Virus record (IMG/VR): IMGVR_UViG_3300024921_000004
Coordinates: 1 to 37,663 of that record
Length of the DNA: 37,663 bases
Direction: 5' to 3' (one strand)
Source of the DNA: a virus
How positions within the stretch are numbered: the first letter of the stretch is position 1; each line of letters begins with the position of its first letter. The translations under genes were made by a program, and so were the position numbers. Positions 1 to 37,663 of the stretch are shown here, in pieces. The notes beneath the pieces are model-generated. The model did no database searches. It had not been told where the DNA came from and was given only the letters and a program-made list of their open reading frames with translations.

Positions 1-12
1 GCGTAACATCAG

Positions 13-501
13 TTATTCAAAAAGACATTCACTCAAATCGGGCGTTGTCGCCGGTTTTGACATCTTGCCGTCATGGATCGCTTGAAAGGCTTTATTGAAA
101 TCCGCGTTGATAAAACTGCTCGACAAATGAGCACACAAACAATAAACGGCTGAGTAATCATCGGTGTTGCCTGAGGTGCAATTATTGATTCTGTCGGACA
201 GGATACGGATGATAGAAAGAATAAAGCCATCATGCCGCCATGTTACCGGACGGTCTGTAACATCACTTCCCCGCATCGCAATAGCGCCCAATGCACAATA
301 GGCAAGATTAACCAGTCCGGCCAGTATTTCAACCATATCGCCCGCTTTAATCGCTTTTAATACCGCGCTGCCTTCATCCATGAGTAATGCTTGACGCATA
401 ACAATATCCATATCGGATAACTTCTCATTTGCCCCATGTTCGGCTTGCGGAAGTGAAAATATGTCGTGGAATTCTCTAACTAACTTTAAGTGCTTATTCA
501 T
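13..501 (-). CDS. MazG/PRA-PH-like nucleotide pyrophosphohydrolase family protein (host)
   Basis: This 162-residue protein resembles the all-alpha NTP pyrophosphohydrolase (PRA-PH/MazG-like) superfamily. It has an acidic helix (MDEGSAVLKAI) followed by a GDMVEILAGLVNLAY helix and an ALGAIAMRG segment, the usual layout of these hydrolases. The canonical EExxE motif is only partly kept, so activity is uncertain. I start at the Met at 501, where GAGG stands about 11 bases upstream; the frame is open further up but has no better site. It lies outside the proposed prophage end, on the same strand as the DUF6494-type gene upstream, so I read it as host DNA. A phage cargo gene is the alternative if the true prophage end lies further left. 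Confidence 0.55.
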   Translation of the reverse strand: MNKHLKLVREFHDIFSLPQAEHGANEKLSDMDIVMRQALLMDEGSAVLKAIKAGDMVEILAGLVNLAYCALGAIAMRGSDVTDRPVTWRHDGFILSIIRILSDRINNCTSGNTDDYSAVYCLCAHLSSSFINADFNKAFQAIHDGKMSKPATTPDLSECLFE

Positions 502-573
502 GGTTTTTATCCTCGTCGACTTACGTCGAATTAATGTAATAACCAGGCCCAACTAAAGTTTTTTCAAAGCGAT

Positions 574-780
574 TTATTCAAGCGCTATTTTTCCCTCAAT
601 GCAATGGTTGACGCCAAGAGCGGGAGCATCCAGGGTCATTTTAATGTCTATGGTCTCGGAACCGTTCAGTTTGCCGGTTTCAATGGCTTTGAGCACGGCA
701 TGTTCGATCTCGCGTTGTGATGTGATGCCGACATGTTTGAGATATTTTCTGATTTCTAAATTTAATGTGTCTTCATTCAT
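574..780 (-). CDS. DUF6494-type small conserved protein (host)
   Basis: This 68-residue protein begins MNEDTLNLEIRKYLKHVG and continues TSQREIEHAVLKAIETGKL, the pattern I associate with the DUF6494 family of small conserved proteobacterial proteins of unknown function. A strong GGAGG site precedes the start by about 6 bases. It is a chromosomal family rather than a phage one, so it sets an outer limit for the left edge of the prophage. No function can be given. Confidence 0.6.
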   Translation of the reverse strand: MNEDTLNLEIRKYLKHVGITSQREIEHAVLKAIETGKLNGSETIDIKMTLDAPALGVNHCIEGKIALE

Positions 781-911
781 TTTGACCTCCTAAAGGCAAA
801 GTAGATTCCATCAGTATGGGCAATGGAATTTGTTTTGTGATGAAAGAACTATTCATTTTTTAATCATAAAAACTTCTTATGAACTGTATCATGTCCTGAT
901 GTTACGTACAC

Positions 912-937
912 GGCCAAAAAATAATTATTTTTTGGCC
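912..937. terminator. perfect 26-bp AT-rich palindrome, possible bidirectional terminator
   Basis: GGCC followed by an A-rich arm (GGCCAAAAAATAA) is mirrored exactly by TTATTTTTTGGCC, so each RNA strand can fold into a 13-bp stem. The T-rich arm could act as a terminator tract in either direction. It lies between the proposed left prophage end and the DUF6494-type gene, in presumed host DNA. The rest of 781-1060 shows no gene. Confidence 0.4.
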
Positions 938-1060
938 TGCAAAAAAGGGAAGTGTTGCTGATCAAAAATTATCAGGAAGCGGCGAAAACAGGTTATTAAA
1001 ATTAATAGCCTACGCCCCACTCGGGGGGCAATGTTAATCTTAAAACGCAGTAGGAGTGAG

Positions 1061-1147
1061 TGAAAGAGTAAAGCGCGTTTGAATTCCGGACAAATAGCGT
1101 TTGAATTCCGGATGAACAATAATGGCATGAACACCCTGAATTCAGGA
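1061..1147. repeat. left prophage end: terminal inverted repeat with three transposase-type sites
   Basis: The terminal repeat is 1061-1090. Inside it, TTTGAATTCCGGA at 1078-1090 is repeated exactly at 1100-1112, a 22-bp (two-turn) spacing like that of adjacent transposase sites in Mu. A weaker third copy, CCTGAATTCAGGA, is at 1135-1147. All three point inward, and the right end carries the same motif in reverse complement. Confidence 0.6.
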
Positions 1148-1160
1148 CGGGGAATAATCA

Positions 1161-1922
1161 CTACCAGTTACGGATAATCAACTCATTTGCAGCTTTACTC
1201 CGCTTGCCACCTCCTACCGTATAACTGATACCCACACTCTCCATTTCCATCCCATCAAAAGCCTTGCGCATCTCGGGGATATCATTAACAGAAATAATCA
1301 TTTTGCCTTTGATCGATTTAGCCAAGTCAGCCATCTTGGTGTATTGATCAAGTTCAAAACTAACACCATAACCCTCAGTACCCCAATATGGCGGATCCAA
1401 ATAAAACAAGGTATGGGGTCGGTCATAGCGATTAATACACGCATCCCAAGCCAAATGCTCAATATACGCCCGAGATAACCGCAAATGCGCTGCCGAAAGC
1501 TCTTCCTCAATCCGCAGTAGATTGAGTCGAGGAGCGCTGGTAGTAGCTATCCCAAAAGTCTGATTGGCAACCTTGCCGCCGAATGCCATCTTTTGTAAAT
1601 AATAGAATCGGGCCGCGCGCTGAATATCGGTCAACGTTTCATCAGGAGTTATCTTGAGCCAGCTATAAATCTGCCGACTAACCAACGCCCATTTAAACTG
1701 CCTGATGAACTCCTCAAGATGATGCTTAACCACGCGATATAGATTAACTAATTCGCCATTAATATCGTTTAACACTTCAACGTCGCATTGCTCCTTAAGA
1801 AAGAAAAGAGCCACACCTCCTGCAAAAGGTTCAACATAACATTCATGAGTTGGGAAAATTGGCAGGATGCGCTTTGCCAAGCGTCTTTTACCGCCTATCC
1901 AGGGGATGATTGGATTTGTCAT
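1161..1922 (-). CDS. D12-class DNA adenine-N6 methyltransferase (Dam-like)
   Basis: This 253-residue protein is an alpha-type (D12 class) adenine methyltransferase that uses S-adenosylmethionine. Near the N-terminus PWIGGKRRLAKRI is the GG motif before the AdoMet site, and YVEPFAGGVALFF is the PF(A)GG motif I. LFYLDPPYWG near residue 170 is the catalytic DPPY motif IV. The target-recognition segment between them is short, as in phage enzymes. It occupies the place of mom at the right end of Mu and follows com with a 35-bp overlap. The mRNA just upstream of its ATG can form a small AAAAC-GAG-GUUUU hairpin (1925-1937) around the GAGG site, which would suit translational activation by Com. It probably marks phage DNA against restriction. 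Confidence 0.9.
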   Translation of the reverse strand: MTNPIIPWIGGKRRLAKRILPIFPTHECYVEPFAGGVALFFLKEQCDVEVLNDINGELVNLYRVVKHHLEEFIRQFKWALVSRQIYSWLKITPDETLTDIQRAARFYYLQKMAFGGKVANQTFGIATTSAPRLNLLRIEEELSAAHLRLSRAYIEHLAWDACINRYDRPHTLFYLDPPYWGTEGYGVSFELDQYTKMADLAKSIKGKMIISVNDIPEMRKAFDGMEMESVGISYTVGGGKRSKAANELIIRNW

Positions 1923-19530: not shown

Positions 19531-20490
19531 TCACGCTATGGGTTTCAGGCACAGAGCCTGTTTGGCGACGGCATCAACCAGCGTCACGTTCAGTTCGCGG
19601 TCATTGCGGAATTGCTGTACAGAGGCAATCAAACCCTCTACCAGCATGCGTGCGCTGCCTCGGCAATAAGCGTACAGGCGGGCTACCACCTCATCAGCCA
19701 CCTCTTCGTCACCGAACGCCGTCTGCACCAATGCGGCAGCATCATCGGCGCTGATTTTTCGCACCGTTTCCGGCCAGAATCCGGCCCGGCTCCTGATCTG
19801 GTCAAACTGGCCATGCTCAGGCTTGATCAGAGTCGTCAAATACTCGGTGCCGCACAAGCAGATGCCGACATTGGTCATGTCGCGCAATCGGCGCAGCGTG
19901 TGCAGTACATGCGGGGTTAGCGTCTCCGCCTCATCGACAATCAGCAAACTGTCAGTATTAGCCAGCACATCAATCACGGCGCGGAACTTGTCGTCTATGC
20001 TGCCCTTACTATCTACACCCGTGACCAGCCGTGCCAGTAACTTTACCAAGCTTTGCGTGGTCATGAACGGCGTCGCCTCAATCAGATAGGTGTTAGGCGT
20101 GGTGCGCTGATAATGCTTGGCGGCAAAGGTTTTACCGGTACCGACATAAGCCGACAACACTGCAAAATTACGGTAGCGCCTAGCCATCTGGAAACAGGTC
20201 ATTGCCAGCCTGAACACGCTGGTTTCTACCGGGGCCAGCACATCCGACTCCGATTCTTCTGCGTGGCGCATGGCGTTGCTGATGCTGACCAACAGCGGAC
20301 TGGGCGAGGTTGCATAGGTGCCTTTGATGATCTGGTTTAAGCTGCTCGGCGATACGCGCGCCAATCTCGCCAGGGCAGCTTGGGTATGTTTTTTGTCAGC
20401 TCCCAGCCACGCATTAACCTCGGCGATCAGCTGTATATCTTCGGCCGTATAATGCTCGGGGTACGACACGGCATTTTTTGGTTGACTCAT
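19531..20490 (-). CDS. B: transposition ATPase B (AAA+, Mu B-like)
   Basis: The 319-residue protein is the target-selecting, transposase-activating ATPase. An N-terminal helix-turn-helix (ALARLARVSPSSLNQIIKGT) precedes the AAA domain. Walker A is SAYVGTGKTFAAK near residue 120, Walker B is SLLIVDEAETL near 170, and SRAGFWPETVRKISADDAAA lies near the C-terminus. It binds DNA and delivers transposase A to the target. The start overlaps the DUF3164 gene by 4 bp. Confidence 0.9.
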   Translation of the reverse strand: MSQPKNAVSYPEHYTAEDIQLIAEVNAWLGADKKHTQAALARLARVSPSSLNQIIKGTYATSPSPLLVSISNAMRHAEESESDVLAPVETSVFRLAMTCFQMARRYRNFAVLSAYVGTGKTFAAKHYQRTTPNTYLIEATPFMTTQSLVKLLARLVTGVDSKGSIDDKFRAVIDVLANTDSLLIVDEAETLTPHVLHTLRRLRDMTNVGICLCGTEYLTTLIKPEHGQFDQIRSRAGFWPETVRKISADDAAALVQTAFGDEEVADEVVARLYAYCRGSARMLVEGLIASVQQFRNDRELNVTLVDAVAKQALCLKPIA

Positions 20491-21183: not shown

Positions 21184-22851
21184 TTACTTAAATGTTAAAA
21201 GGTCAATCTCAATAGGTTCCGGCAAGACGCTGGAGGTCTCTGTATTTAGCATCGCATCTGCGCCGACAACAATCGCATCGACGTCGATCACCATACCGGC
21301 GCGGTCTTGTTGCTCTATCATTTTCTGTTCCAAGCGCTTAATGGCGTCACTGGCGCGGTTGAGGCGCTTTTCTTCCATACGGTTGGGCGCAATGGCATCA
21401 ATCGCGTTGATCAAATGAGCGTCGCATATCCAGCGCCCATCCAGGGTGCGAATGATGGCCACGCTGTCATCCATCAGGTCATATTCCAAGATCACCTTGG
21501 TACCATTAAACGCTTCCAGATCGGCGTTCTTGTAACTGCGCTTGCCGTGGGCGATGCTTGCCCGCTTAACCGTCAATTCAACCGCTTGACGCTTGAGTTC
21601 TATCTCTGCCATATTCGCAGGTATCGGCACCAGCCCCTCCCATAGTGAGGCTTTGGTAACCCCTTTGTTTTCAGGGTGCGGACGGCTGGCGTAACGCTGC
21701 AACCAATCGTTAAACGCCTCGGTAAACTCGGCTTGGGTCGGCAATTGCAGTCTGCCAGCCTTAATTTCGCGCACGGTTTCCTGCAGTACCTCGGCCGCCA
21801 TGTCATGACCGCAGTAAAACCGAGGCCGCCACAGCTTTAAAAAATCCCGCTTTATCTCGACAAACAAGCGCTCGATCCAACCCTTGCCGTGCGGATTGCC
21901 AGGCAATGAATGGATGATTTCCTGCACACCGGCGCGTTTGTAGAACCCAATCTGATCATCGCTCATCAGCTTGTTCTTGTAGCCCGAGCCGTTATCGACA
22001 TAGATAAACAGCGGCACGTGATTCCAACGAGCAAAGCATTCCGCCCACATGTTCTGCACGGCTACCGTGCCTTCGTGCTCATCGGCCCGCCAGCCCACTA
22101 CTACGCGGGACCTCAAGTCAATAGCCACAGTCAGCTCAGGACGCCATATTTTTCCGGTTACCGGGTGAGCCAGATACACGTCGGCCCGATAACCATCGGC
22201 TACGTATACATCGCCGGGCAAAGCGTTATCGGTGCAGCGGCGGATATATTGCTTCTTGGTCAGCCGATACAGGTTCTTGCCGATCCGCGCCGGGCTATTG
22301 CGGCCGAGCATGGCGGGGACGCTGGTTAAATACGCCCGAACCTGATCGTAGGTGCAGGCAAATTTATCCACTTCCACCAGTTGCCTATAGACCACCGACA
22401 TTTCAGGCTGCCCCGGCTGGTTGTAATACTCCAGAGCGGGACCCCACCAAATCGGGATTTCACTCAGCACCCGGCCTTTGTGATTCTCCAGCAGCTCGAC
22501 CCTGCCGCCGCCGACTGTTTTGATCTTACGCCATTCAAAAATGGCATTACGCGCCGGGGCCAATCGATCCGCTTTGGCGGCACGCTTAAGGGCAGCTTGC
22601 AGGTATGGGTTAAGCGAACCCACTTCGGCTTTAGCCAATAAAAGCTCAATAGCCTTACTGGCGCTTAGGCCGGTTTTCTCCAGCTCAAGCACCGCTTCAA
22701 CTATATCCAGCCTGGCTGTCGCTACCTCACGCTGGCTTTCGCTGGCCTCTCTCCACGGATCGCGCTGACGTAGCGCAATCACCTGTCCTGTAGTTCTGAC
22801 GGCGGGCGTCGCTTGATCAAGCCGCTGAATAAAGGCATTCTGTTTGCGCAT
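21184..22851 (-). CDS. A: DDE transposase A (Mu A-like)
   Basis: The 555-residue protein catalyses strand cleavage and transfer for replicative transposition. An N-terminal DNA-binding part (about residues 1-200) precedes the RNase H-fold core. I place the acidic triad at DVYVADGYRAD (about 220), FIYVDNGSGYKN (about 285) and GKGWIERLFVEIKRD (about 325). A Mu-type C-terminal beta-barrel and a tail that could bind B (EQKMIEQQDRAG) follow. It is shorter than Mu A (663 residues). Its target sites are probably the TTGAATTCCGGA repeats at both ends. Confidence 0.9.
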   Translation of the reverse strand: MRKQNAFIQRLDQATPAVRTTGQVIALRQRDPWREASESQREVATARLDIVEAVLELEKTGLSASKAIELLLAKAEVGSLNPYLQAALKRAAKADRLAPARNAIFEWRKIKTVGGGRVELLENHKGRVLSEIPIWWGPALEYYNQPGQPEMSVVYRQLVEVDKFACTYDQVRAYLTSVPAMLGRNSPARIGKNLYRLTKKQYIRRCTDNALPGDVYVADGYRADVYLAHPVTGKIWRPELTVAIDLRSRVVVGWRADEHEGTVAVQNMWAECFARWNHVPLFIYVDNGSGYKNKLMSDDQIGFYKRAGVQEIIHSLPGNPHGKGWIERLFVEIKRDFLKLWRPRFYCGHDMAAEVLQETVREIKAGRLQLPTQAEFTEAFNDWLQRYASRPHPENKGVTKASLWEGLVPIPANMAEIELKRQAVELTVKRASIAHGKRSYKNADLEAFNGTKVILEYDLMDDSVAIIRTLDGRWICDAHLINAIDAIAPNRMEEKRLNRASDAIKRLEQKMIEQQDRAGMVIDVDAIVVGADAMLNTETSSVLPEPIEIDLLTFK

Positions 22852-34440: not shown

Positions 34441-35730
34441 GTGGTAGATTCTAAATATCCCGATATGCAACTGCCGTTTTCTGAGGCTATTGATTTTTTC
34501 AAAAAGAAAATCAAACTGCCGACATCGGGCTGGACTGATATTTGGCAAGAGCAACACAGCCATGCCTTTGTGGTGACGGGGGCAACCCATGATGCTCTGG
34601 TAGAAGATTTCTATAATGCCATAGTCAAGGCTAAGTGGGCTGGTGGTGGCTACGAGGAGTTTAAGCAGAGCTTTCAGGATATCGCCGCCAAGCATGGCTG
34701 GTCATACAATGGCTCGCCAGGGTGGCGCAGTAGAATAATCTACGATACCAACATTACTCAGTCTTATAACGCCGGGCGCTACCAGCAGATGATGGCGGTT
34801 AAGCATCTTCGGCCGTTTTGGACATATGACCATACAAGTATTGAGCATCCGCGCCTTGAGCATAAGGCATGGGACGGGTTGGTTTTATCAGCCGATGATC
34901 CTTGGTGGAATACGCACTATCCACAAAATGGCTGGGGCTGCAAATGCAGGGTGCATTCTCTGTCTGAATTTGAAGCGCGTCAGAAATGGGAGCAAAAAGG
35001 CCTGTCCGGTCCCGATCAATCCCCTCCTATCGAAATGGAGGAGAGAGTCATCGGTAAAAACGGCAGCAATCCGCGCACAGTGTGGGTACCTAAGGGTATT
35101 GACCCAGGCTTTGCCTATAATCCTGGCAAAGCTTTTCTTGAGCCCCATACTGTGCCGCCTTTACAGGGTTACGATGCGGTGCTAAAACAGCGTGGCGAGC
35201 CGTGGCCAACGGGTTTTAATCCGCCATTACCGCCCAAGCCCACTAAAGTGCCGGCTCATATCGTGCTGCCCGCCGATACGGCGCCGGAAGTGGCTGTGCA
35301 AGATTTTTTGGAAGTCTTCGGAGCAACTATGGAACAAGGCGCAGCATTTACCGATGCAGCGGGAAGTACGTTGGCAGTAACTAAGGCGCTATTTCAAGAT
35401 GGGCAGGGAGATTTCAAGTGGCTGGCTAGTGCTAAAAAAGCCGAACGACTTCGGTACATTAATCTACTGGCCATGACGCTGATTGAACCAGATGAGGTTT
35501 GGTGGGTATGGGTAAAAGATCATCAAGATAATGGTCGGTGGCGTTTAAAACGTCGTTATCTGCGAGCTTTTGAGCTTGATGGCTCTGCGGAATATGGTGT
35601 GTCGGTATTTGAGTGGGGTAGAACAGGGTGGACGGGTTCGACAGCATTCATGACAAATCAACCATCTGAGGCATTGCGCCAGGAATACTTTGATAAGCAG
35701 CGTAATGGTAGACTGGTTTATCAGAAGTAA
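34441..35730 (+). CDS. F: minor head protein F (MuF domain plus PBECR2-like domain)
   Basis: The 429-residue protein starts with GTG. The MuF domain (about residues 60-190) contains FYNAIVKAKWAGGGYEEFKQ, AVKHLRPFWTYD, LSADDPWWNTH and GCKCRVHSLSEFEAR. A linker (DPGFAYNPGKAF; PPLPPKPTKVPAHIVLPAD) leads to a PBECR2-type domain at about 340-429 (IEPDEVWWVWVKDHQDNGR; RYLRAFEL). MuF proteins sit at the portal and can be injected; the C-terminal domain belongs to a nuclease/toxin-like group. The same two domains occur as separate genes next to the repressor. Confidence 0.85.
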   Translation: MVDSKYPDMQLPFSEAIDFFKKKIKLPTSGWTDIWQEQHSHAFVVTGATHDALVEDFYNAIVKAKWAGGGYEEFKQSFQDIAAKHGWSYNGSPGWRSRIIYDTNITQSYNAGRYQQMMAVKHLRPFWTYDHTSIEHPRLEHKAWDGLVLSADDPWWNTHYPQNGWGCKCRVHSLSEFEARQKWEQKGLSGPDQSPPIEMEERVIGKNGSNPRTVWVPKGIDPGFAYNPGKAFLEPHTVPPLQGYDAVLKQRGEPWPTGFNPPLPPKPTKVPAHIVLPADTAPEVAVQDFLEVFGATMEQGAAFTDAAGSTLAVTKALFQDGQGDFKWLASAKKAERLRYINLLAMTLIEPDEVWWVWVKDHQDNGRWRLKRRYLRAFELDGSAEYGVSVFEWGRTGWTGSTAFMTNQPSEALRQEYFDKQRNGRLVYQK

Positions 35731-35831: not shown

Positions 35832-36353
35832 ATGCAATTTGAGATTGAATTTAAAGCGGATCACCTTAAGCGCGTGATGGAAGCAGTCCGGCGAGAAATC
35901 GCTACGCCGCAGGAAATGCTGGGAAGCATGGGTGAGTCGTTACTGCGGGTGAATCGGGAGCGTCATGACAAGGGGCTGGCACCAGATGGAACTAGGTGGA
36001 AAGAATTGTCTCCACTGACCCTGGCTCAGGGGAATCGCAAGGGTGGGCCGTTGAATAAGTCTGGCGATCTATTACACAGTTTCCATTATCAGGTAACGGG
36101 CAATAGGTTGGTGTTGGGATTTGATGGCGCATTTGAAGCCAAAAAAGCTGTCTGGCACCATTTTGGAACCGACCCATACACTATCGTGCCAAAACATAAA
36201 GCAGTATTGGCATTTGCAGGTATCGTTAGTAAGCGGGTTAATCATCCGGGACTGCCGAAAAGACCTCTAGTTGGTTTTCCTGTATCTGATCAAAAATTGG
36301 TTGCTGATGTAACTGCTGATCATTTGGTACGCGTTTTAAAGCGCGTTCGATGA
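35832..36353 (+). CDS. G: virion morphogenesis protein G
   Basis: The 173-residue protein fits the Mu G/phage virion morphogenesis family: LGSMGESLLRVNRERHDKGL and GTRWKELSPLTLAQGNRKGG, then GDLLHSFHYQVTGNRLVLGF near the middle and LPKRPLVGFPVSDQKLVADV near the end. It acts in tail and head joining in Mu. It is the last gene before the right end, while in Mu the protease follows directly. The spacer 35731-35831 in front holds no gene. Confidence 0.8.
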   Translation: MQFEIEFKADHLKRVMEAVRREIATPQEMLGSMGESLLRVNRERHDKGLAPDGTRWKELSPLTLAQGNRKGGPLNKSGDLLHSFHYQVTGNRLVLGFDGAFEAKKAVWHHFGTDPYTIVPKHKAVLAFAGIVSKRVNHPGLPKRPLVGFPVSDQKLVADVTADHLVRVLKRVR

Positions 36354-36417
36354 TTGAATAAACGGCATTAAATAGGGATAAATACCCTAACTCCTGAGCT
36401 AATTTATCCTATTTTTC

Positions 36418-36479
36418 TCCCGAATTTTCCTCGTTTTTACCTCAATTCATCCGGAATTCAAGAGTTTTTTATTTTTCCA
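36418..36479. repeat. right prophage end: terminal inverted repeat
   Basis: 36450-36479 is the reverse complement partner of 1061-1090 (22 of 30 identical), with TCCGGAATTCAA at 36450-36461 mirroring TTGAATTCCGGA. A weak second site, TCCCGAATTTTC, is at 36418-36429. The region between the end of G (36353) and this repeat holds only a short TAGGG/CCCTA inverted repeat. Confidence 0.55.
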
Positions 36480-36576
36480 TGTTTCTCAGTATTTACGGGG
36501 CTTTCAGGCCATTTTTCCCTATTGTTCTTTGTCCTGTTTCTCCCCCCTCCCTACTGAAAGCTATTTGGTGAGCACT

Positions 36577-36650
36577 AAAAAAACCGCTTACCCTTCGATA
36601 AGCTCAGGGCTAACGGGATTTTTGAGCGCTCAACTGCGGTTTTCGGGTTG
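36577..36650 (-). terminator. terminator of the host kinase gene, with an interspersed repeat inside
   Basis: AAAACCGC (36580-36587) pairs with GCGGTTTT (36636-36643), with a T-run of seven at the minus-strand 3' side. Inside lie CCCTTCGATAAGCTCAGGG, a form of a repeat common in proteobacterial genomes, and the perfect palindrome TTGAGCGCTCAA (36622-36633). Confidence 0.5.
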
Positions 36651-36663
36651 ATGCGGGAACTGC

Positions 36664-37663
36664 TTAAGCGTCCTTGGGGATCCCTCGTAGCGTTGCCAGT
36701 GCGTTTTCGTAGTCGAATACCTCAATTTGTCGAGTAAAGTCAGCATAGCGACTGCCCAGCTTCACTCGCAGCAGGTCAGCGGATTCGCGGGCCAAGCCGT
36801 TGGCGCGAGCGTTGTCTTCGACAAGCAGGTTTTCCAATTCCGAGAGTACTTGTTTTAAGCATTCGGGATCGATATTGCAGGCAGTGTTTTCGATAAGAGC
36901 AACTTCCGGCAAACTCAGGATGTACTGAATCAATTGAGCCAATTCGCGATCACACAGCCTGGCCAATTCTGCGCACTCGGTTGAAGTGGCATTCTGGCGC
37001 AAGGCCTTATCCAGCAGGGTTGCCAGATCGGAAACGCGGCGAGCGCCCAGAGTGGCGGCGGCGCCTTTCAGGCCATGAGTCAGGTGTTGCGCCTCTTGGA
37101 TGTCTCCCTTATTCAGCAGTTCTTGTACACGAATCATGTCTCTACTATGGAAGTTGGCAAACATCTGCAAAAGTTGCTGATATTTCAGGGTGTCGCCCCT
37201 GACGACAGCCAGGCCCCGTGCCGCTTCCAGTCCCGGAACGGTTGCCAGTCGGCTCGGAATGTAGCTGACCGGGAGAGGGATCGGCATGAAGTCCTCCGTG
37301 AGTTCTACGGGGCGGTTTTCTAAATCTGCGGGGGGATAGTTTCGGTCAGGTGGCGACAGCCAACGCAGCAACGTAGCGTAGAGAACCTGCGGAATCACGG
37401 GTTTGGCAACAAAGTCGTTCATGCCGGCATTGAGGCAGATACGCCGGTCTTCGTCAAAAGCGTTGGCGGTCATGGCCAGGATCGGCAAGGATGCGTAGCA
37501 GGGCTGGGCGCGAATCGCTTTGGTTGCGGCCAAGCCATCCATATCGGGCATCTGCACATCCATCAGCACCAGATCGTAGCTATTCGTACCGAGCTTATCC
37601 AAGGCGACCCGACCGTTTTCCGCCGTGTCCACCGACAGACCGACCCCGTGCAGCAATTCCAGC
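36664..37663 (-). CDS. hybrid histidine kinase, C-terminal part (receiver plus Hpt), partial
   Basis: The gene continues past the right edge, so only its last 333 or so codons are seen. A receiver domain comes first: [13 protein letters not shown] carries the phosphoacceptor Asp, ILAMTANAF and VAKPV the conserved Thr and Lys. A histidine phosphotransfer domain follows: [20 protein letters not shown] with the phospho-His. This is a host signalling protein, probably a BarA- or similar hybrid kinase acting by His-Asp-His relay. The start lies outside the window. Confidence 0.85.

Follow-up and report, generated by a model that had tools for sequence, protein, structure and literature searches.

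By comparing a 37,663-nucleotide stretch of viral DNA (hereafter the window) with an unoccupied chromosomal site and with the ends of related phages, we find that positions 1067-36555 are, with a probability of roughly 0.93, an integrated transposable prophage of the type represented by the Burkholderia phage KS10, carried by a host bacterium of or near the Methylomonas family. The Mu-type phage proteins encoded between its terminal repeats include a central transposase, a MuB-like ATPase, a late activator, a head protease and a major head protein (Table 1). As in KS10-like phages generally, the genome is split: head and tail arms diverge from a central repressor/transposase region. The tail genes are read leftward as far as the D12 methylase at 1161, and the rightward set, which reaches 36353, consists of lysis, terminase, portal, gpF-like and gpG-like genes. 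The DDE/RNase H transposase with its Mu-type C-terminal domain, together with the MuB-like ATPase, identifies Mu-type transposition in the broad sense, and the best matches of the transposase in the phage collection, Curvibacter phage TJ1 (35.1%) and KS10 (34.5%), followed by the next at 29%, place it on the KS10/TJ1 branch. The gpF-like head protein also has a PBECR2 nuclease-like domain at its C terminus (Pfam, E 1.6e-29). That the element is a decayed remnant which has lost its mobility seems improbable to us, given that the transposase and structural frames are open, that both ends are present with an undecayed duplication, and that a close relative lies at another site.

A sequence-only reading of the window had noticed TTTGAATTCCGGA at 1078 and 1100; both copies are exact, lie 22 bp apart and recur nowhere else on either strand. 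Such repetition exceeds chance, as only four among 200 Markov shuffles produced an exact 13-mer repeated within 50 bp. The third form that it saw at 1135 is likewise there, as a 3-mismatch copy at 1135-1147 that corresponds to T3, as is the mirror copy, TTGAATTCCGGA inverted at 36450-36461 within H2. Stronger evidence than such shuffles comes from relatives, which show this arrangement at an equal distance from their ends. The 22-bp T1/T2 pair occurs at the tail-side end of 15/15 members scored, nine in the window's subclade and six in the KS10 subclade (14 distinct end sets, because the ends of KS10 and the KS10 prophage G039 are identical). Its two sites start 10 and 32 bases from the end in 9/9 of the former and 11 and 33 bases in 6/6 of the latter, and the 22-bp spacing stays constant across transposase divergence down to 34%.

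The remaining sites are more variable. T3 is found 66-67 bases from the end in eight of the nine members of the window's subclade (it is absent from G034), with a weak match at that position in a single KS10-subclade member, G041; since its 11.8 bits are no better than single chance matches elsewhere (11.7 and 11.6), it is by position that T3 is recognized. H2 lies at 90-92 in 9/9 of the window's subclade and at 103-116 in 6/6 of the KS10 subclade. The KS10 subclade has a clear H1, of which only the inner half, with a GGAC core, survives in the window's subclade; there it lies at the exact T1 distance, its profile score falls below 5 bits and its bases match in 42 of 54 cases, against at most 24 at 17 other offsets. 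Scanning 250 bp per end with the profile thus returned 3 + 2 sites in the window's subclade and 2 + 2 in KS10's. This is the KS10-like pattern of 15-nt sites at both ends with a tail-side pair 22 bp apart, and not the three sites at each end of Mu proper and the D3112-like phages. A search for IHF-like sites between H1 and H2 gave one loose match among the 15 members. On these sequence comparisons, T1-T3, H1 and H2 are most likely transposase binding sites. The repeats do come shortly after the stop codon of the methyltransferase gene and have some palindromic character (GAATTC), as might be imagined of regulatory elements belonging to that gene, but we consider such a role very improbable. 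They keep fixed distances from the end (10-11 and 32-33) in 15/15 members, and the motif recurs in inverted form at the opposite end. The two subclades, with transposases 34-35% identical, have different site sequences. The repeats also lie on the downstream and not the upstream side of the methyltransferase gene, which is absent from most relatives (3 of 25 records matched).

Table 1. Positions of the prophage, its genes, ends and candidate sites, and the flanking host sequence in the window
Feature	Position	Strand	Description
Host chromosome flank	1-1061		PRA-PH-like gene, DUF6494 gene; present in empty site
Target-site duplication GAAAG, left copy	1062-1066		Same as 36556-36560; single in empty site (L162:2551-2555)
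Prophage	1067-36555		35,489 bp; empty site, end profiles from 8 relatives, departure of G001 right after 36555
Tail-side end (Mu attR-like)	1067-1147	+	Terminus AGTAAAGCG, then three candidate sites
Candidate site T1, CGTTTGAATTCCGGA	1076-1090	+	Bases 10-24 from end; 24.7 bits, profile from 8 relatives
Candidate site T2, CGTTTGAATTCCGGA	1098-1112	+	Bases 32-46 from end, 22 bp from T1; 24.7 bits
Candidate site T3, ACCCTGAATTCAGGA	1133-1147	+	Bases 67-81 from end; 11.8 bits
D12 adenine-DNA methyltransferase	1161-1922	-	PF02086; last gene of tail arm
MuB-like AAA+ transposition protein	19531-20490	-	PHROG 296 DNA transposition protein, AAA_22
Transposase A	21184-22851	-	555 aa, mid-genome; MuA/TnsB-type DDE; PHROG 310 transposase, Mu-transpos_C
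Mu gpF-like minor head protein	34441-35730	+	PF04233; C-terminal PBECR2 nuclease-like domain PF18810
Virion morphogenesis protein (Phage_tail_S, Mu gpG-like)	35832-36353	+	PF05069, PHROG 26; last gene of head arm
Candidate site H2, CTCTTGAATTCCGGA	36450-36464	-	Bases 92-106 from head-side end; 17.4 bits
Candidate site H1, GGGGGAGAAACAGGA	36532-36546	-	Head-side terminal, bases 10-24 from end; degenerate outer half
Target-site duplication GAAAG, right copy	36556-36560		Same as 1062-1066; empty-site comparison
Host chromosome flank	36561-37663		Response-regulator/Hpt protein gene

Three comparisons show that the prophage ends at 1067 and 36555, with the termini AG...CT. First, a search with the left flank of 237 genomes of the Methylomonas family found one at 97% (G122) that holds the same chromosome site without a phage (L162). 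Joined with one GAAAG, the window's flanks (the left up to 1066, the right from 36561) are 96.6% identical to this empty site over 1,573 columns; taken separately, the flank matches end at 1066 on the left and start at 36555/36556 on the right, the match at 36555 being one base of chance agreement, and inward of each end the agreement is 10/40, which is chance level. Second, the metagenome relative G001 is 97.5% identical to window positions 36115-36555 and continues into unrelated DNA beyond, which is 76 bp past the right end placed by the sequence-only reading. Third, profiles made from other members pick 1067 (66.4 bits, against 7.3 for the second-best place) and 36555 (34.3 against 10.1 bits), and profiles of this kind, made from the other members alone, locate both ends in 14 prophages. 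AG stands at 30/30 ends of the 15 members, so that the group shares with KS10 termini that are not TG...CA, and the TG...CA (5'-TGT) termini of Mu proper and the D3112-like phages are absent. From the window alone the cut would be uncertain by one base, because each GAAAG copy has a T before it (TGAAAG at 1061 and 36555); when the 5-mers were slid as a control over the group, the AG position alone fitted, and the relatives therefore settle the one-base shift. Searching with the right flank against 37 genomes of the Methylomonas genus gave longest matches of 66-76% identity and no empty site, and no A1-type transposase was found in G122, by a search whose empty answer shows little.

The ends first proposed, TG at 1061 and CA at 36479, with their 30-bp inverted repeats and supposed lack of a duplication, thus retain practically no probability, even though TG...CA is usual in Mu-type elements and the 22 matches over 30 bp are as described (a best inverted match of at least 22 was reached in 0 of 300 shuffled region pairs). 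The empty site, by which that proposal had itself asked to be judged, contains 1061-1066 and nothing from 1067 onward; nor does it contain 36480-36554, a segment that the proposal assigns to the host, and G001 carries the window's 36480-36555 at a different insertion site. The similarity is real and the ends are wrong because T1, the outermost tail-side site, was paired with the inner head-side H2, which put the placement off by 76 bp at the right end and 6 bp at the left. What endures of the idea of transposon ends with paired transposase sites is that these are the ends of a transposable phage with a 22-bp pair in 15/15 members; its TG...CA termini and their placement give way to AG...CT. 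An end at 1049, where AGTAGGAGTGAG looks end-like and both it and 36555 read AGTAGG inward (AGTAGG 1049/CCTACT 36555), is rejected with equal firmness, as 1049-1061 is host sequence present in the empty site, the duplication is absent with this placement, and relatives and duplication put the end at 1067.

With the ends so placed, the prophage is flanked by a 5-bp duplication, GAAAG. The sequence-only reading had reported none, and the pentamers it compared, GTGAG and TGTTT, do adjoin the ends it assumed. Twenty-five viral records yielded relatives (49-99% identity), and titled genomes gave 16 usable loci, including four Methylomonas, Rhodoferax, Ideonella, Burkholderia, Pandoraea and Collimonas; 17 genome loci were found, L119 (29%, 135 residues) was left out, ends were retrieved for 16, and in three of these (G030, G035 and G036) the contig as retrieved does not include the tail-side end. 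Because an earlier round of end picking was circular, demanding a matching 5-mer in 8 of 14 pairs and using the 5-mer to fix the exact base in others, the duplication was counted from other-member-only profiles and from metagenomic pairs. As expected of Mu-type transposition in the broad sense, an exact 5-bp duplication is present in 13 of 14 prophages with leave-one-out ends. The end-profile scan of viral records, which covered 20 of the 25, showed both ends in five, and four of these five carry the duplication (here with a profile derived from the first prophage set). In controls, cross-pairs matched in 0/182 cases, slid 5-mers in at most 4/14, and lengths of 3, 4, 6, 7 and 8 in 0/14. The duplicated 5-mers (GAAAG, GCGGG, AAGGC, ACCGG, CCAAG, CCACC, TTCTG, GCATC, CGGCG, TTTGG, TTAGA, GCTCA and TGTGC) are all distinct, which fits scattered insertion, and no clear consensus that would indicate a target preference was seen by eye among the 13. 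One prophage (G033) and one viral record (G011) have both ends without a duplication, which could reflect recombination between copies or assembly joins. A search of relatives for GAATTCCGG gave a few scattered matches that located no ends, since trimming affects most IMG/VR records and the motif itself drifts. The tail-side end as a DNA query against the phage collection returned only 21-bp matches (E 0.4).

Sequence and structure comparisons show that the transposase belongs to the MuA/TnsB-type DDE fold family. Its best solved relative by sequence is MuA (4fcy, E 2e-11); with a model of the transposase, MuA leads a Foldseek search by E-value (1.6e-18), and VIA-align 2 puts TnsB at the top (Z 22.3; MuA 17.9). 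The model, of low confidence in places (mean pLDDT 73.8, pTM 0.47), comprises some 30 disordered residues, helical bundles at 32-112 and 136-177, an RNase H core, a barrel and C-terminal helices, and is, as predicted, similar to the portion of MuA that was crystallised; as described in PMC3562280, that portion omits the enhancer-binding domain. Judging from the model, the 555-residue protein seems to be without this N-terminal domain. D219, D286 and E327 are invariant across 29 transposase sequences, and in our reading would form the catalytic triad.

We suggest that the phage inserts by DDE transposition, in which the transposase would nick exactly 5' of AG at each end and the 3' ends (...CT-OH) would attack the target 5 bp apart, giving rise to the GAAAG duplication. 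The transposase would occupy T1, T2 and T3 on the tail side and H1 and H2 on the head side. T1 and T2, 22 bp apart, could hold adjacent subunits, as at the Mu right end, and H1 and H2, 82 bp apart, would resemble the Mu left end, with the long spacer presumably bent. We infer this occupancy and bending, as well as which subunit cuts and that growth is replicative.

Several features of the flanking DNA may be recorded here. Positions 36577-36650, host intergenic sequence around CCTTCGATAAGCTCAGGGCTAACGG, have many scattered matches in genomes of the Methylomonas genus and therefore represent a dispersed host repeat beside the insertion site. In the left host flank, 912-937 form a perfect palindrome, GGCCAAAAAATAATTATTTTTTGGCC; most of it is preserved in the empty site, and it may be a terminator. 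In G001 (L057 1-11198), inserted at a different site, about 11 kb of other DNA adjoins the head-side end, with reading frames that look ATPase- and lipase-type by eye.

What this adds for the KS10-like group is the exact position of the ends, the 5-bp duplication, the T3 site and the degenerate form of H1. No title or abstract in the open-access literature searched names a duplication for the KS10 group or a Mu-like prophage in Methylomonas. Since the end profile alone finds both ends of members, prophages and their insertion sites can be delimited automatically.

KS10 (NC_011216) shares with the window the order of head arm, repressor, central transposase and tail arm, together with 15-nt sites, a 22-bp tail-side pair and AG termini in place of TG...CA; AGAGGGGGG opens its record, which closes with the complement of AGTAGCGCG. 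It differs in its transposase (34% identical), in its site, CGTTTAATTTGACCC as against the window's CGTTTGAATTCCGGA, and in having no T3, a clear H1, and H2 at 115 instead of 92. In its account of the ends, the KS10 paper describes four 15-nt sites, remarks that TG...CA is lacking, and reports that direct repeats were not found (PMC2628397). The present comparison fixes for this group exactly where the elements end, how long the duplication is and where the sites lie, and the KS10 prophage of B. cenocepacia NCTC13227 (G039), identical to KS10 over 376 bp on the tail side, has the duplication CGGCG. Curvibacter phage TJ1 (MH766655) likewise resembles the window in gene order, including the terminal adenine methylase, and in the 22-bp tail-side pair, with a transposase that is only 35% identical. 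The deposited ends of TJ1 look slightly off, because its GenBank record (L102 1-25) starts 22 bp before the group-predicted AGGGGGGAGATG end and the terminal A is missing at the other end.

In Mu, the transposase genes lie at the left end of the genome and the R1 and R2 sites are 22 bp apart. By analogy with this spacing, the tail-side end of the prophage appears to be spaced like the Mu right end, though the genes beside the ends are rearranged. Mu further resembles the window in its DDE transposase, its 5-bp stagger and its several unequally spaced sites per end, as far as PMC3562280 and PMC3820752 describe them, and differs in its TG...CA termini, its six sites and the extra N-terminal enhancer-binding domain of MuA. 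The D3112-like Pseudomonas phages have a MuA-type transposase (27.8% identical over 89%) that, unlike the window's, is encoded near the left end; in the description given in PMC4378225 the left end has its first two sites at 10 and 93 bp, close to H1 and H2 (10 and 92). They differ in their 5'-TGT termini, in having three sites per end, and at the right end, where the sites lie at 4, 46 and 93 and R1 is inverted, so that there is no 22-bp pair. Because the D3112-like left-end sites lie at 10 and 93, and because the Mu L1-L2 spacer is given as 74 bp (PMC3820752), the head-side end of the prophage has the spacing of a Mu-type left end. Whether the KS10-like phages form a separate Mu-type branch is a thought we offer tentatively and would not yet favor: such a branch would have a MuA-like enzyme cutting at 3'-CT rather than 3'-CA, asymmetric sites (3 + 2 or 2 + 2) and no Mu-style enhancer, the last because the transposase seems to be without the domain that would bind it and because the repressor region is mid-genome, far from both ends. 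The AG...CT termini provide a clean test of how strict the requirement of MuA-type enzymes for a terminal CA is.
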